This document shows positions 2,113 through 13,380 of a stretch of DNA of 35,933 nt, piece by piece. This DNA is from a virus. The translations under genes were made by a program, and so were the position numbers. The stretch covers positions 1-35,933 of IMG/VR virus record IMGVR_UViG_3300001920_000005. One strand, written 5' to 3'. The notes beneath the pieces are model-generated. The model worked only from the letters and a program-made list of their open reading frames with translations, searched no databases and was not told where the DNA came from. The first letter of the stretch is position 1. Each line of letters starts with the position of its first letter.

Positions 2113-2603
2113 AGGCTCATCACCTCGATGTCGTGTGGCTGGCGCTTGCCCGCCAGAATCTCGCGGATGCGCCGCTCGGTGAGCGCGTGGGCCTGTACGG
2201 CCTGGCGGTGCGAGATGACGTCCAGCAGCTCGGCGTAGTCCGTCAGCACCGCACGCACGGCCTGAATGCCGGGCGCGTCCAGGCGCAGTGCCATGCCGCC
2301 GCGGTAGCGCCGGCCAGCGCCGGCCAGCGCGCTCACCGCGTCCTGCAGCAGACCCTGCGGGTCCTCGGCCAGGCCCATGGTGCACACCAGGGTCTCCATC
2401 AGGTTCACGGCGTCGCTGCATACGCGCCAGTCGTCCAGGCTGGGCTCTGGGTCGCGCTCCAACGCGGCCAGGCCTTCCCACATGCGCGTGAGCTGATGTC
2501 GGCGCTTCTCCGCAGGCATCGGTGCGCTGTCGCTTGCCATGAGCACATCCAGCAGTCGGTAGGTCAGGCCCGGCGCGGTTCGCCTGGTGCGGCGGCGCTT
2601 CAT
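2109..2603 (-). CDS. phage protein of unknown function (164 aa)
   Basis: Begins with a very basic MKRRRTRRT segment and continues as a mostly helical, soluble protein without membrane segments. I recognise no catalytic motif. The start at 2601-2603 overlaps the stop of the ParB-like gene and the stop overlaps the small membrane-protein gene, so it is the middle cistron of a tight early operon. The composition (charged, Leu/Ala-rich, few Cys) fits an adaptor or nucleic-acid-associated early protein, but that is a guess. Confidence 0.7.
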   Translation of the reverse strand: MKRRRTRRTAPGLTYRLLDVLMASDSAPMPAEKRRHQLTRMWEGLAALERDPEPSLDDWRVCSDAVNLMETLVCTMGLAEDPQGLLQDAVSALAGAGRRYRGGMALRLDAPGIQAVRAVLTDYAELLDVISHRQAVQAHALTERRIREILAGKRQPHDIEVMSL

Positions 2604-4540
2604 TCGGCGGGCTCCTCTTCGGTGTTGATCGGCTCGCCGTCTTCGCGCGCCAGGTCCTCGGCCACCTTGTCCCGCACGGCCAGCAGATCGATGCCGTAGG
2701 TGCCCAGCACCGCGGCCGCGTCTTCGTTGTGTGGGTAGCTGGTCAACACCAGTTCCAGCGAGGCCATGGCGATCAGTTGGCCCAGTGCGTCGGCGTCCAT
2801 GGCCAGCACCTTGTCGCGCACCACGGGCCAGACATCGGCCGCCGCCTCAAGCTCTTCCGTCCAGCCCAGGTAGTCCTTCATGCGCGGCAGCGCTTCGTCG
2901 GACATGGGTTGGGCGAGCAAGGCCAACGCGGTGCGGCGCAGTTCTTCCTCGTTGCGCTGGCCGGTGCGGATCAGGTCAAAGGCCGTGATCAGCGCAGCGC
3001 GGCGAACACCGCTGTCGCGCCAGGCCTTCTCTTCGGGCGGACACGTGTCCAGGGCGAAAGGCGTGCGCACCGGCGTGCTGGCATCGTCGTCATCCTCGTC
3101 GTCCGGCATCAGCTTGTCGGCCAGTGAGTCCGGAATCACCCTCACCGCTTCGCAGGTGTGAGGATCGATGAGCACCACAGGCTTGGGCGCCTTGCGGCCC
3201 AGGCCGCGCAGCGCATCACCGAAGGTCTCCTCGCGTTCCTGGCCATCGTCGCTGGTGACCACGCGCATCACGTCGTCCACACGCGTGTAGCCGCTGAGGA
3301 AGCTGCTAAACGGCGAAGGCCGCGCGGCGCGGGCTTCCTCGTCGCTCAGCACCTTCAGCCCTTCGGCCTCGGCCTTGCTGCGCACCACGGCCACGTGGGC
3401 AGCCTTCTTCGCGGCGAAGCAGCCCTCGTCGGTGCAGCTGTCGGTGGCGTGCTCGGCGTCGCCGAACAGATCCTGCGCGGTGCTCGTGCGCTTGGGGCAG
3501 CCGCTGCAGGCGCCGGCGGCCGGCACGAGGCTCGCGTCCTCGATGTCGAACACCGCCTGCGCCAGCTGCGTGTTGAAGCGGGAATAGAGCGCCGTGGCGA
3601 TGGCCCGAAACGGCGCGGGTTCGCCATTCACCGCCTGGCTCTTGATGTATTCCACCACCGCGGCCTGGCGCTCGGCCGGGTAGCGCGCCACCAGCAGGCC
3701 GGTGCTGCGGCCCAGGTGGCCGTCGTACATGGCCTCGCGGCTCTCCGGCGTCAGGTCCAGCAGCTTCATGGCCTTGCGCACGTAGCTTGCGCCCTTGCCG
3801 CGGCCGATGCGGTCGGCAATCTGCTCCACCGTGTAGCCGAGCTTGTCGCGCAGCAGCGCAAAGCCCTCGGCCTCTTCCATCGCGTCCAGGTCCTCGCGCT
3901 CGATGTTCTCCACCAGCTGGATCTCGAGCACGGCCTCGTCACTGAGCTGGCGCACCAGCATCGGCATGGTGGCCAGCTCGGCAATCTGTGCCGCGCGCCA
4001 GCGGCGCTCGCCGGCCACGATCTCGTAGGCCGGGCGCGGCTCAAGCTGGCTGGTTTCTTCCACGCGCGCCGCCGGCAGTGGGCGCACCAGAATCGGCTGG
4101 GCGATGCCGTGGGCGCGCACGCTGGTGGCCAGCGCGTTGAGGCTGTCGATGTCCAGGCCGCGGCGGCGCCGCGGGTTGGTGGGGCTGTTGATGGCCAGTA
4201 GCGGCGCCGCCTCCACGAACTCGGTGCTGCGCTGTGCGGCGCCCGTTGCCGGCGCGGCAGCTGCTGCCACGCCGGTGCCCTCGTGCGTCGGCAGCAGCTC
4301 CAGGTCTTTCAGGTCGAACACCTTGGCCTTCTTGCTGCCGCCAATGACCACGGTGTAGGCGCCCAGCGGCGTCTGGCCAGTGATCTCGCCGTACTTGCCA
4401 GCCCACATGTGCGGGCTGCCGCTCATCATGTCGGTGGCTTCCAGGCTGATGCGCACCTGGCGGCCGATCAGATCGGCCTCGGGCTGGTGATGCGCCTGGT
4501 GGTCGGCCTGCGCGGCCACGGTGGATTCGTCGTCAGACAT
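2600..4540 (-). CDS. ParB/Spo0J-like protein with KOW-like N-terminus and Cys cluster
   Basis: 646 aa from the ATG at 4538-4540; longer upstream starts run into the preceding gene and are not needed. Residues about 20-85 resemble a KOW-like barrel (GRQVRISLEATD, KYGEITGQTPLGAYTV). A ParB N-terminal domain follows with SPTNPRR, the CTP-binding signature GERRWRA and the ENIERED box, then a helix-turn-helix (YTVEQIADRIGRGKGASYVR). Further on, CSGC and two later Cys residues (DSCTDEGC) form a possible metal site. The C-terminus is acidic and family-specific. ParB proteins load on DNA as CTP-gated clamps. No ParA or obvious parS lies in the window, so plasmid-like partition is not implied; related stand-alone ParB-like proteins are common in phage early operons. 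It overlaps the upstream gene by 8 bp. Confidence 0.85.
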   Translation of the reverse strand: MSDDESTVAAQADHQAHHQPEADLIGRQVRISLEATDMMSGSPHMWAGKYGEITGQTPLGAYTVVIGGSKKAKVFDLKDLELLPTHEGTGVAAAAAPATGAAQRSTEFVEAAPLLAINSPTNPRRRRGLDIDSLNALATSVRAHGIAQPILVRPLPAARVEETSQLEPRPAYEIVAGERRWRAAQIAELATMPMLVRQLSDEAVLEIQLVENIEREDLDAMEEAEGFALLRDKLGYTVEQIADRIGRGKGASYVRKAMKLLDLTPESREAMYDGHLGRSTGLLVARYPAERQAAVVEYIKSQAVNGEPAPFRAIATALYSRFNTQLAQAVFDIEDASLVPAAGACSGCPKRTSTAQDLFGDAEHATDSCTDEGCFAAKKAAHVAVVRSKAEAEGLKVLSDEEARAARPSPFSSFLSGYTRVDDVMRVVTSDDGQEREETFGDALRGLGRKAPKPVVLIDPHTCEAVRVIPDSLADKLMPDDEDDDDASTPVRTPFALDTCPPEEKAWRDSGVRRAALITAFDLIRTGQRNEEELRRTALALLAQPMSDEALPRMKDYLGWTEELEAAADVWPVVRDKVLAMDADALGQLIAMASLELVLTSYPHNEDAAAVLGTYGIDLLAVRDKVAEDLAREDGEPINTEEEPAE

Positions 4541-4958
4541 GGCGGGTCTCTCGGGTGGTGGGGTTGAGGGCGGTGATGCGGCCATCCGGCCAGTGCAGGT
4601 TCGTGCCCACTCGGCTGGGCAGCCGGTAGGCGTCCATGGCTCCCGGGCGTGAGCTGGGCGCGGAGAGCTCAAGGCCCTGGTAGTTGTCCGCGTTGCGTGC
4701 GGCGCGCAGTCGGTCGGTGTCGCTGCGCTTGCGGCGGATCGATTCGCCGGCCAGCTTGGCGCGCCCGCGCGGGGTGATCGCGTAGCGCACGTCCTTCGTT
4801 GTGTGGTCCGCGTCGATGTGGCCGAGGTAGCGCAGGTTGCTCAGCGTGCTCACAGGCAGCTGGCCTAGGGCGGCAGTGATCTCGGCACGCGTGCGCGCGC
4901 CGTGCATCTGCAGGTGCCGCAGCACGTCGGTGGTGATGGGCGATGCGACGCCTTTCAT
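4533..4958 (-). CDS. winged-helix-like phage DNA-binding protein
   Basis: 141 aa. The N-terminal 70 residues look like a winged helix: helix (TDVLRHLQMHG), HTH (TRAEITAALGQLPVSTLSNLRYLG) and a beta wing (HIDADHTTKDVRYAITPRGRA). The rest is basic and low in structure. Role inferred as an early transcription or replication accessory. An AAGGA sequence about 10 nt upstream can serve as ribosome binding site. Its stop lies inside the ParB-like start region, consistent with translational coupling. The family is not named with certainty. Confidence 0.65.
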   Translation of the reverse strand: MKGVASPITTDVLRHLQMHGARTRAEITAALGQLPVSTLSNLRYLGHIDADHTTKDVRYAITPRGRAKLAGESIRRKRSDTDRLRAARNADNYQGLELSAPSSRPGAMDAYRLPSRVGTNLHWPDGRITALNPTTRETRHV

Positions 4959-9270: not shown

Positions 9271-9639
9271 ATGCACCAGGTATCCATCCCTGTCGCCGTC
9301 GCTCCGCACGAGGTGATGCGCAAGACCTCGCTGGGGGGCGCCATCGATCTCTGCCTGGAACTGGCTGGCGTGGAGCCCAAGCAGTTGCAGCGAGACCTCA
9401 AGCTCGACAAGGCCCAGTTCAGTCGCTGGCAATCCGGGCAGGAGGGCATCGTCTGGCCCCGCCTGAAGCTGGTCATGGACCACTGCGGCAATGATGCGCC
9501 GCTGCTCTGGCTCAACCACGACCGCGGCTACGACCTGGGGGCCATGCGCAAGGTCGAGTCCACCCTGGAGCGTGAGAACCGCGAATTGCGCGAGCAACGC
9601 GACGCGCTGCTGACCCTGCTGCGCAGCGCCAAGGGCTGA
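9271..9639 (+). CDS. CII-like phage transcriptional regulator
   Basis: 122 aa. A HTH-like middle region (LAGVEPKQLQRDLKLDKAQFSRWQSGQEG) and a C-terminal coiled coil (ESTLERENRELREQRDALL) suggest a multimeric DNA-binding activator. Position after Cro and before the replication genes is that of lambda cII. GAGAGG eight bases before the ATG at 9271 is the ribosome binding site and lies within a hairpin arm. Stop and next start overlap (TGATG). Confidence 0.7.
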   Translation: MHQVSIPVAVAPHEVMRKTSLGGAIDLCLELAGVEPKQLQRDLKLDKAQFSRWQSGQEGIVWPRLKLVMDHCGNDAPLLWLNHDRGYDLGAMRKVESTLERENRELREQRDALLTLLRSAKG

Positions 9640-10652
9640 TGGACAACTACCACGAGGTGCTGCACCAAATGGAGCAGTTCGGCATCAAGCTGCGCGGCAA
9701 GGACACGGTGAAGTTCCCCGTGCTGGCGCGGCGCACCACTTGCGGAGCTGGTGGCAAGTACTGGTACAAGCTCTACGAGTTCCGGCCCCGCGCGGGCGGC
9801 TGCTTCCTCGTCGGCTCATTCGGCAGCTACCGCGACAACACGCACGCCAAGGTGGAGGTCGACTGGCGCCCACTGGGCGAGGCCGAGCGCGCGCGCTTTC
9901 TGGCCGAGCGCGAAGCCGCGCGCAAGCGCGAGTTGGCGGCGCGTGAGGAAGAATCGGCCCGCGCCGCCATGACGGCGGCCGAGCTGTGGGCCTCGGGTTC
10001 GCGCAGTGGCACCTCGCCATATCTGCAGAGCAAGGGCGTGCAGGCCGAGGCCTGCCGCTACCTGCCGGACGGCTCGGTGCTGGTGCCGCTGTTGCGCTAC
10101 GACCTGCCGCGCGAGCAGGCACTGCGCGCGGTGCAGCGGATCTACCCCGCGCCACGCAAGCATCCGCGAACGGGCGAGGCGCTGCCTCAGAAGGTGTTCA
10201 CCAAGGGCTTCGCCAAGACCGGCTGCAGCGTACGTCTGGGCGAGATCGGGCCCGATTCGGCGTTGCTCATCGTGTGCGAGGGCTACGCCACGGGGCTGTC
10301 GATCCGCATGGCCACGGAGCACCGGTGGCCGGTGTTCGTGGCCTTGGACGCCTACAACCTGGCGGCCGTGGTGGCGCTGCTGCGCACGCTGTATCCGCGC
10401 ACCTTCGTTCTGATCTGTGCGGACGACGACTGGCTGAGCACCGACCACGAGGGCCCGAACCCTGGCCGGCGCAAGGCTCGCCTGGCGGCCAAGCAGGCCG
10501 AGAACTGCGAAATCGTCTGGCCGGTGTTCACCGCGAGCACCCGCCAGCCCAAAGACACCGACTTCAACGACCTGCACCAGCGCGAGGGCCTTGCCGCTGT
10601 GCAGCGCCAGTTGCAGCGCGTGGTGGGCTTGATTCTGGAGCTGCTGGATTGA
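9639..10652 (+). CDS. Toprim-domain phage primase
   Basis: 337 aa. The N-terminal part is DNA-binding-like with a charged helix (residues 78-110, rich in Arg/Glu/Ala). The Toprim domain spans about residues 208-310, with the catalytic Glu214 in LIVCEGYATG and the Asp triad 262-264 in CADDDW. This is the arrangement of phage and plasmid primase-like Toprim proteins working with the adjacent SF3 helicase. No N-terminal zinc-binding motif of the DnaG type is clear, apart from isolated Cys residues (Cys35, Cys55). Expected to make primers at the phage origin. Confidence 0.85.
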   Translation: MDNYHEVLHQMEQFGIKLRGKDTVKFPVLARRTTCGAGGKYWYKLYEFRPRAGGCFLVGSFGSYRDNTHAKVEVDWRPLGEAERARFLAEREAARKRELAAREEESARAAMTAAELWASGSRSGTSPYLQSKGVQAEACRYLPDGSVLVPLLRYDLPREQALRAVQRIYPAPRKHPRTGEALPQKVFTKGFAKTGCSVRLGEIGPDSALLIVCEGYATGLSIRMATEHRWPVFVALDAYNLAAVVALLRTLYPRTFVLICADDDWLSTDHEGPNPGRRKARLAAKQAENCEIVWPVFTASTRQPKDTDFNDLHQREGLAAVQRQLQRVVGLILELLD

Positions 10653-12322
10653 CCGAGGCCGACGAACCGGCGGGCATGCCGACAACACCCCCCAAACCGC
10701 AGGACGCCAGCACTGGCGTGCCGGTGGGTGAGGGCGCGAGCACGCCAGAAACGCCCCAGGAAGCGTTGGGCGACACGGCGCCACCTAGCAATGTCGTGGC
10801 CCTCAACGGACGCGGCAAGCGCCAGCCCAAGGCCTCTCCGAGCACGAATGAAGCAGAGTCCCCCCCGCCCCCCGATAGCGCAAGCGCACCTTCACAGGGG
10901 AACGGGGGGGAGAAGGCCGGCGGGCGCGCCAAGCGCAAGATCGACTGGGGCCGCTTCACCTACCTGCTCGAGAACTTCGTGCTGATCTACCCGACCGACA
11001 CGGTGTGGGATCACAGCAAGCGCAAGCAGGTCAAGATCAGCAACATGGCCCACATGTACGGCACGGACTACGTGCGCATGTGGAAGGCATCGCCCGACCG
11101 CAAGACCATCGACGAAGAGGATCTGGTTTTCGACCCGACCATGACGTGCGGGCCGGAGAAGATCAACCTCTACCGCGGGCTGGCGATCGAGCCGATCCCG
11201 GCCACCGAGACCGACGTGGCGCCGATGCTGGATCTGCTCTACCACCTGTGTGGCCGATGTCAGGGCGACGAAGCCGGCATCGAGGCGGTGATGCAGTGGG
11301 TGCTGCGCTGGCTGGCGCTGCCGCTGCAGCGGCCAGGCGCCAAGCCGCGTTCGGCGCTGGTGTTCCATGGGCCGCAGGGCACGGGCAAGAACCTGTTCTT
11401 CGACGTGGTGCGCGGCATGTACGGCGAGTACGGGATCATGGTCGGCCAGACCGAGATCGAGGACAAGTTCAACGGCTGGCTGAGCGCCAAGCAGCTGGTG
11501 ATTGGCAACGAGGTGGTGAGCCGCCAGGAGCTGTACCACAGCAAGAACCGGCTCAAGTGGGTGATCACCGAGGAGACGATCCCCATCCGGACGATGCACA
11601 CCGACAGCCGCAGTGAGCGCAACCACGCCAACGTGGTGTTCCTCTCCAACGAGCGGCAGCCGCTGGTGCTGGAGCAGGGCGATCGGCGCTACCTGGTGGT
11701 CTATACCCCCGTCCCCGAGGATGGCGTGCTCTACGCCAGGGTGCGCGACTTCCTGGCCAACGACGGCCCGGCGAAGTGGATGCACTTCCTCATGCACTAC
11801 GACCTGGGCGACTTCCATGAGCACACCAAGCCGCTCATGACGGAAGCGAAGCAGGACCTGATCGACCTCAGCATGCGCTCCGACGAGCGCTTCATGAGCG
11901 AGTGGGTCGGCGGCTTCCTGCACTTGCCCATGCGCCCATGCTCGGCCGAACAGCTGTACCGGGCATTCCGTCGCTGGTGCGACGCCTCGGGCGAGCGTTA
12001 CCCCCCTCCCCAACATGCGTTCACGCTGGCCGCGCGCCGTTGGGTGGCAGAGAGAGTGGAGCGAGACGACAAGGGCGAGCGTCTGGACCCGTGCCTCGAC
12101 TACAAGGTGACCACCCTGCCGCCCGACCCGCTCACCTCCAGCGGCAGGCGTTCCATCCGCTGCTGGCTGCCGCGCGGCACCGGGCCGCTCAACGGCGTGA
12201 GCGAGGGCGCCTGGGTGGCCGAGTGCGTCGACGCCTTCGAGACGGCGCTGGGGCGCTTCCTGCGCAGTCGCGAGGGCGCCGAAGACTCACCTGAGGCCAA
12301 GTCGGGAGGGTCCAAATCGTGA
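10649..12322 (+). CDS. SF3/DUF5906-type replicative helicase
   Basis: 557 aa if begun at TTG 10649, which overlaps the primase stop and has GGAG eight bases upstream; an ATG at 10676 lacks a convincing ribosome binding site. Residues 1-95 are a Pro/Ser/Ala-rich linker. The ATPase core has Walker A GPQGTGKN (241-248), an acidic Walker B-like strand KQLVIGNEVV (281-290), sensor-like NVVFLSNE (328-335) and an Arg finger-like DRRYL. This is the DUF5906/D5-like helicase of phage primase-helicase systems. The C-terminal 200 residues are a partner- or origin-binding candidate. It is followed directly by the CGTWACG repeat element. Confidence 0.87.
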   Translation: MTEADEPAGMPTTPPKPQDASTGVPVGEGASTPETPQEALGDTAPPSNVVALNGRGKRQPKASPSTNEAESPPPPDSASAPSQGNGGEKAGGRAKRKIDWGRFTYLLENFVLIYPTDTVWDHSKRKQVKISNMAHMYGTDYVRMWKASPDRKTIDEEDLVFDPTMTCGPEKINLYRGLAIEPIPATETDVAPMLDLLYHLCGRCQGDEAGIEAVMQWVLRWLALPLQRPGAKPRSALVFHGPQGTGKNLFFDVVRGMYGEYGIMVGQTEIEDKFNGWLSAKQLVIGNEVVSRQELYHSKNRLKWVITEETIPIRTMHTDSRSERNHANVVFLSNERQPLVLEQGDRRYLVVYTPVPEDGVLYARVRDFLANDGPAKWMHFLMHYDLGDFHEHTKPLMTEAKQDLIDLSMRSDERFMSEWVGGFLHLPMRPCSAEQLYRAFRRWCDASGERYPPPQHAFTLAARRWVAERVERDDKGERLDPCLDYKVTTLPPDPLTSSGRRSIRCWLPRGTGPLNGVSEGAWVAECVDAFETALGRFLRSREGAEDSPEAKSGGSKS

Positions 12323-12576
12323 GTGTGTTACGCCTCCCGCGTAACGGCGTTTCGCCGCAAACCCTCGTCGTTACGTGCGTTACGCGTGTTACGCCACCTC
12401 TTCCGCATGCGTGCGCACATGTGCAGGCGCGGGTGCGCGTGCGTACATGCACATGCACGCGGGAAAACCGCGAAACAGGCGTAACGCACGTAACGACGCG
12501 GCCTGCGGGCGTAACGCGCTCGCGCGCAGGCGTAACACGTCTGGTCTTCCCTTTCCCAAAAAAGAAAGAGGGTTGA
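12319..12576 (+). CDS. doubtful ORF reading through the repeat element (Val-Thr repeats)
   Basis: GTG at 12319 overlaps the helicase stop, with GGGAGG about 10 bases upstream. The 85-aa translation is dominated by repeats: VVTCVTRVT, then alternating RVRVRTCTCT, then GVTHVT, GVTR, GVTR. Seven of the nine CGTWACG sites encode Val-Thr in this frame, because site spacings are multiples of three. It may be a real small protein, or an accident of DNA repeats selected for another reason. Both strands stay open here. Confidence 0.25.
   Translation: MSVLRLPRNGVSPQTLVVTCVTRVTPPLPHACAHVQARVRVRTCTCTRENRETGVTHVTTRPAGVTRSRAGVTRLVFPFPKKKEG
12366..12498. repeat. 20-bp perfect inverted repeat with 93-bp spacer
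   Basis: Arms at 12366-12385 and 12479-12498 are exact reverse complements, each carrying two CGTWACG sites. The spacer contains the two alternating purine/pyrimidine tracts. Extrusion as a large cruciform or looping by a bound protein are possible consequences. Confidence 0.85.
12404..12461. other. two Z-DNA-prone alternating purine/pyrimidine tracts
   Basis: Strict alternation for 22 nt at 12404-12425 and 29 nt at 12433-12461, mostly CG/CA/TG steps, interrupted by seven bases. Such tracts favour Z-DNA under negative supercoiling. They sit in the centre of the inverted repeat. Confidence 0.75.
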
Positions 12577-12579
12577 AGG

Positions 12580-13380
12580 ATGGACATCAACGTCAAGCAC
12601 AACTTCCCCGAGGTGGCCACTGCGCTCAAGCGCGCACGTTCTCAGGTGCCGTTCGCGCTGGCCCGCGCGCTCACCAAGACCGGGCAAGAGGTGAAGGAAG
12701 CGCAGCGCGAGGAGATCAGCCGCGTGTTCGACAGGCCCACCCGCTACACGCAGAACGCGGTCTACCTGCGCCCGGCGACAAAGACCCGGCTGGAGGCCGT
12801 GGTGTGGCTGAAGGATGGGAACCGGCCCACGCACTACCTGCTGCCACAGATCGAGGGCGGTGCGCGCCCGCTCAAGCGCTTCGAGCAGCGCCTGGTGCGC
12901 GCGGGCTTGATGCAACCCGATGAGCGTGCAGTGCCCGGGGGCGGCGCCCAGCTCGACGCCTTCGGCAACATCAGCCGCGGGCAGATCACCAAGATCCTGA
13001 GCCAGCTCAAGACCGCAGCGGTGGTGGGCGACACGTCGAACGCTTCGGACAGCCGGCGCAGCCGCGCCAAGCGTGCACGCGAGGCCTACTTTGTGAGCCG
13101 GGGGCCTGGCGCCTGGACCGGCAAGGGCTCATGGAAGAACGGGCTGAAGTCGCAACACCTGCCGCGCGGCGTGTGGGTGCGCCGCAGCTTCGGTCCGTGG
13201 GGCACGGCTGTGAAGCCGGTGCTGCTGTTCGTGAAGAAGGCGGACTACCAGCCCCGCTTCAAGTTCTTCGAGATCGGCCGGCGGGTCATCAACCAGCGCT
13301 TCGTGGCCAACTTCAACGAGAGCTGGGAGATCGCGATGCGCACGGCCCGGCTCAGCGGCCAAGGGAGTCTCTTCGCATGA
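12580..13380 (+). CDS. phage structural protein, possibly minor tail protein Z-like
   Basis: 266 aa, basic and Arg/Lys-rich. The start region has a helix with RARSQVPFALARALTKTGQEV followed by a segment that contacts DNA or protein (RPTRYTQNAVYLRPA). Its layout recalls lambda gpZ-family virion proteins, but identity is not established. GAGGG seven bases upstream of the ATG is the likely ribosome binding site. It is the first gene after the repeat element and precedes the terminase block, separated by a 139-bp gap. Confidence 0.55.
   Translation: MDINVKHNFPEVATALKRARSQVPFALARALTKTGQEVKEAQREEISRVFDRPTRYTQNAVYLRPATKTRLEAVVWLKDGNRPTHYLLPQIEGGARPLKRFEQRLVRAGLMQPDERAVPGGGAQLDAFGNISRGQITKILSQLKTAAVVGDTSNASDSRRSRAKRAREAYFVSRGPGAWTGKGSWKNGLKSQHLPRGVWVRRSFGPWGTAVKPVLLFVKKADYQPRFKFFEIGRRVINQRFVANFNESWEIAMRTARLSGQGSLFA

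Follow-up and report, generated by a model that had tools for sequence, protein, structure and literature searches.

What is the repeated sequence behind the helicase gene of this phage, and does it mark the place where replication starts? The window (the whole stretch of DNA that was analysed, a 35,933-base IMG/VR virus record) carries a Toprim primase gene (9639..10652, plus strand) directly 5' of the gene for an SF3-type helicase with a DUF5906 domain (10676..12322, plus strand; start codon inferred, ORF open from 9986). This helicase is the proposed initiator, and its C-terminal domain (~11900-12274, plus strand) is the proposed reader of the repeats. The gap 3' of the helicase gene extends to 12580 and contains the array; it is followed by a tail-completion-like gene and by genes for the small and large terminase, portal, head protease, tape measure, tail and lysis proteins, a content at odds with a PICI or SaPI satellite, which lacks a full capsid and tail set of its own. 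From sequence comparison, 12323-12540 is very likely the replication origin of this phage, or failing that a cis-acting region at which the phage loads its own SF3 helicase. Searches of 12200-12700 found no sigma-70 promoter or intrinsic terminator, and there was no Rfam RNA match; the GC skew trend of the window was weak and confounded by gene direction, and was therefore left unused. Elsewhere in the window, a minus-strand ORF (2600-4672) has a strong ParB-like match (phrog_4715, E 3.5e-34), and the phage might have a plasmid-like stage.

The preliminary description had placed nine copies of a 7-bp palindrome, CGTWACG, around a perfect 20-bp inverted repeat (12366-12385/12479-12498), in an array at 12319-12580 directly after the helicase gene. 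The coordinates, the inverted repeat and the position directly 3' of the helicase stop (12322) were all confirmed, but the exact CGTWACG occurs only six times in the window, and the count of nine is reached with the 6-bp core GTTACG/CGTAAC. Nor is the unit a palindrome: it is an asymmetric GCGTAAC, and the units of relatives (e.g. CCTTCACA) are clearly non-palindromic. As CGTTACG is the reverse complement of CGTAACG, the reported preference of T-centred copies for the left and A-centred copies for the right, which does exist, reflects one asymmetric unit in two opposite orientations. When one mismatch to GCGTAAC is allowed, the array has eleven sites in two half-arrays (6+5), the left sites in one orientation and the right sites in the other, around a 75-bp core. 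On the left these are L6 (12327..12333), L4 (12349..12355, GCGAAAC, one mismatch), L3 (12370..12376, ACGTAAC, one mismatch), L2 (12379..12385) and the innermost L1 (12388..12394), all on the minus strand, together with L5 (12339..12345), which is flipped to the plus strand. The right sites are all on the plus strand: R1 (12470..12476, GCGAAAC, one mismatch), R2 (12479..12485), R3 (12488..12494, ACGTAAC, one mismatch), R4 (12509..12515) and R6 (12530..12536). The sites for which no mismatch is given read GCGTAAC. Five mirror pairs share one axis at ~12432, so that every right site (5/5) has a partner (L4, for example, is mirrored by the site at 12509), and there is no recognisable site at the mirror position of L5 (~12519). 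The 20-bp repeat is itself enclosed in a 57-nt imperfect inverted repeat (12338-12394/12470-12526, 77% complementary).

Chance is excluded as the origin of the array by shuffle tests. Against the nine local copies of GTTACG/CGTAAC, 5000 local dinucleotide-preserving shuffles gave 0.73 on average and never more than 5, and the largest cluster within 211 bp in 300 whole-window shuffles was 2.

We then compared related helicase loci, of which 80 were taken from IMG/VR and 63 were non-redundant (helicase identity <85%). Whole-ORF helicase searches gave few or no loci; a pattern of CGTTACG pairs and an alignment query did find them. The preliminary description had proposed to look for arrays next to related helicases, and had held that their absence would count against an origin. 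The outcome was the opposite, since in 63/63 non-redundant DUF5906/SF3 helicase loci an array lies within ~300 bp of the helicase stop codon, at the same place as in the window. Just 3' of each helicase a lineage-specific unit is repeated 6-15 times (GCGTAAC, CCTTCACA, CCGCACA, TCAGACA and others), with a mean site density of 11.3 per 350 bp in the arrays vs 0.53 elsewhere in the same 63 loci. Because the motif was chosen in the array itself, de novo motif discovery was repeated in 12 control windows per locus: 59/63 arrays exceeded every one of the 12 controls from the locus concerned, and 58/63 lay above the 99th percentile of all control windows. The closest relative, L001, is a prophage in a Hydrogenophaga genome whose helicase is 82% identical in an alignment of 530 residues; it shares the GCGTAAC unit at the same place with several virus contigs whose helicases are 52-63% identical. 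In an alignment of the regions of five close relatives, 69% of bases were invariant in the sites, 34% in the arm between sites and 16% in the core. The more distant helicases (30-40% identical) of the isolated phages S1, Lodos, LPPA56, pAN and H4907 are followed at the same place by an array of another unit, as is that of Mcat7, where the array is weaker. In Stenotrophomonas phage S1, the annotated gene gp2 spans the array (L127, 2454-2804) and may for that reason be a spurious gene call. A virus contig without a detected related helicase (L101) contains a very dense set of 23 GTTACG/CGTAAC sites at 2692-3061. The H4907 genome paper makes no mention of an origin, and a literature search covering mostly papers available without subscription found no earlier report of such arrays in tailed phages.

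Arrays were also present in small plasmids. We considered five in which the related helicase is the sole evident replication gene among those listed, in gene tables that are incomplete. In three of the five (Roseomonas, 9.7 kb; Vibrio pMP1, 7.6 kb; Klebsiella, 6.5 kb) the best-scoring window was just 3' of the helicase, and pMNOD07 has an array which is not the best window of the plasmid. The 4.9 kb E. coli plasmid pRHB09-C13_4 (L213) encodes a related helicase with no recognisable array behind it, and may have an origin of another type.

The geometry of the arrays is regular. Six is the commonest number of sites per half (left in 36/63 loci, right in 29/63), and the totals peak at twelve (22 loci) and eleven (15 loci). 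Steps of 8-9, 11-12, 21 and 33 bp are prominent over the 63 loci, the half-arrays are separated by 84 +/- 17 bp (site start to site start), and the innermost sites are oppositely oriented in 59/63. Each locus has on average 4.17 pairs of sites that mirror each other to within 1 bp, vs 2.98 after permuting spacings within halves (the highest mean among 200 permutations was 3.24), and in nine loci the number of pairs is six. The 6+6 arrangement would be accounted for by a pair of helicase hexamers in which every subunit occupies one site.

With regard to the protein that may read the units, sequence comparison indicates that the unit tracks the helicase's C-terminal domain more closely than the ATPase core. 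With core identity allowed for, unit similarity was associated with the identity of the C-terminal domain (partial r 0.39, reached in 0/2000 label permutations), a value from which shared ancestry is not fully removed; core identity added little once the C-terminal domain was known (0.08). The association was positive whichever band of core identity was considered, and residues 331-390 of the 400-aa model gave the strongest value. A residue-level scan singled out no specificity residues; clade markers of the core ranked equal to C-terminal residues in it. AlphaFold models of the helicase and of its C-terminal domain had a pLDDT of 93. In Foldseek searches the whole helicase model matched NrS-1, D5/E5, AsfvPrimPol and the SaPI5 primase-helicase, the best hit being the C-terminal (helicase) region of the NrS-1 phage primase-polymerase (PDB 6k9c). 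NrS-1, the closest solved relative, also gave a profile match (E 1.3e-29) spanning the ATPase core (profile positions 179-418). The C-terminal domain is modelled as helix-helix-strand-strand-helix, a winged-helix-like order, and on its own had no significant PDB match in Foldseek. Proteins matching the window helicase are annotated as 'integrase' in records such as OR538761 and JX131330 (YuA-like Pseudomonas phages), which looks like a propagated misannotation.

The preliminary description knew of no family with this arrangement, yet P4 crr, the SaPI/PICI origins and SCCmec Cch2 are of the same kind (PMC6092414; PMC7581432). In SaPIs and PICIs (pri-rep-ori) the origin likewise lies directly 3' of the initiator gene, with two sets of iterons around a central region and iteron sequences which vary between elements, and the function of a Gram-negative PICI origin of such layout was tested (PMC6092414). 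Both features recur here: a site directly 3' of an SF3/D5-like initiator helicase gene in the window and in 63/63 non-redundant relatives, and short iterons in two sets around a central region (6+5 in the window, with a mode of 6+6 in the relatives). In SaPI Rep and SCCmec Cch2 the C-terminal domain binds downstream iterons, for Cch2 short ones (AAGTG) just downstream of the operon, although there are three direct repeats there vs a mirror array of 12 positions here (PMC7581432). The position of the array and its two iteron sets match the SaPI/PICI origins (PMC6092414; PMC7581432) and P4 crr, as would its predicted reading by the C-terminal domain. The best explanation of the comparative data is an iteron origin of the P4/SaPI/PICI type, or a cis region for replication, which would be read by the helicase C-terminal domain, and an iteron origin beside the primase and helicase genes, as had been suggested, remains the best-supported reading. 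The present arrays differ from those of PICIs in that phages carrying them are complete and have genes for terminase, portal and tail.

For such an origin we infer that the helicase binds the array with one subunit per site and as a double hexamer, and that replication starts there. The helicase encoded directly upstream would bind the GCGTAAC units via its C-terminal domain, probably as two hexamers, which the six unit positions per side, in opposite orientations, would seat face to face; the facing hexamers would open the 75-bp core that separates them, after which the Toprim primase encoded next to the helicase would prime both strands.

The core itself (12395..12469, no strand, dyad axis ~12432) has 65% GC vs 66% for the locus, and contains a 29-nt alternating purine-pyrimidine run, a length reached by none of the control windows of the locus. 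An alternating run in the top 5% of the locus was found in the core of 55/60 loci and an unusually AT-rich core (lowest 5% of GC) in just 12/60, and in some cores a short alternating tract occurs together with an AT-rich stretch. In locus L208, the putative origin contains a 59-nt uninterrupted alternating tract in its core. Alternating CG/TG sequence is prone to form Z-DNA. The cores of PICI origins are AT-rich (PMC6092414), unlike the window core and unlike the present cores in general, which are mostly alternating, and this is the least explained feature of the arrays. It is conceivable, though rather unlikely, that they form a distinct class of origin, with twelve sites in mirror symmetry, two facing hexamers and a Z-DNA-prone, GC-rich tract in place of the AT-rich element. 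In such a class one subunit would occupy each of twelve helicase sites placed in near base-pair-exact mirror symmetry, and the alternating tract would store or absorb torsion while the hexamers open the core.

Returning to the P4-type reading, the comparison with P4 itself raises the question of whether the array is the start site. P4 alpha combines a Toprim-type primase with an SF3 helicase, activities also found in the window phage, and the crr repeats of P4 are 8 bp long, lie in both orientations immediately behind the helicase gene (3'), and have 9-bp steps among their spacings; they are bound by a winged-helix domain (PMC4234260). In our procedure, with P4 as positive control, the top windows of its genome were the annotated crr (directly 3' of alpha) and ori. 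P4 is however a satellite with two crr copies of five repeats each and a separate ori, whereas the window represents a full tailed phage with separate primase and helicase genes, a different unit and a single mirror-symmetric array. As P4 needs both crr and ori, which share one unit, the array could correspond to crr and act together with a start site that was not seen, i.e. be a helicase-binding cis region aiding replication begun elsewhere, or else an autoregulatory or copy-control array. We regard this as very unlikely, as there is no second cluster of the GCGTAAC unit within the window, and PICI origins at the corresponding position do function as origins (PMC6092414).

A slimmer chance still goes to an origin of the pRN1 type, in which the large inverted repeat would act as a hairpin or cruciform and not as a set of protein sites. 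pRN1 requires a stem-loop of 100 nt that lies 3' of the SF3 replication gene, and the authors of that work proposed a stem-loop behind the replication gene of the Bordetella (Burkholderiales) phage BIP-1 (PMC4234260), so that the proposed origin again lies 3' of an SF3 helicase replication protein gene; the window strand, too, folds strongly as DNA (z = -8.1). Those stem-loops are however without iterons, and here the units repeat within each half. A hairpin needs neither these repeated units nor the outer flipped sites, nor a unit that tracks the C-terminal domain. BIP-1, our negative control, has no array by the same procedure (score 3.4), from which it appears that the stem-loop type and the array type differ.

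The reading as a packaging site (cos/pac), or as some other operator close to the terminase genes, which lie ~1-1.5 kb downstream of the array in the window, has practically no probability left. Terminase-binding repeats are known in other phages and were counted in its favour, but the array stays with the helicase and not with the terminase, and this candidate was rejected: in Lodos and H4907 the arrays are directly behind the helicase and the terminase genes are >2 kb away, beyond the lysis genes, the unit tracks the helicase, and arrays also occur in small plasmids that list no terminase gene. Equally negligible is a small protein gene with the repeats as coding repeats. The 85-codon ORF 12319-12576 is open and fills the gap almost exactly, with several site spacings in multiples of three, but its reading frame is broken in the closest relative L001 and spacings elsewhere (8, 11 etc.) are not multiples of three, on which grounds it was rejected.

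Finally, since the loci include complete tailed phages, the description of this layout as peculiar to phage satellites (PICIs and their cousin P4) should be widened: it would be a general replication module, found in ordinary tailed phages and also in some small plasmids. Nature offers many combinations of an iteron unit with a helicase C-terminal domain, which form a ready dataset for a recognition code, and the regular 6+6 geometry with its unusual alternating core would make duplex opening by SF3 double hexamers testable in a simple bacterial system. An array behind the helicase may also serve as a rule for locating origins in metagenomic phages.
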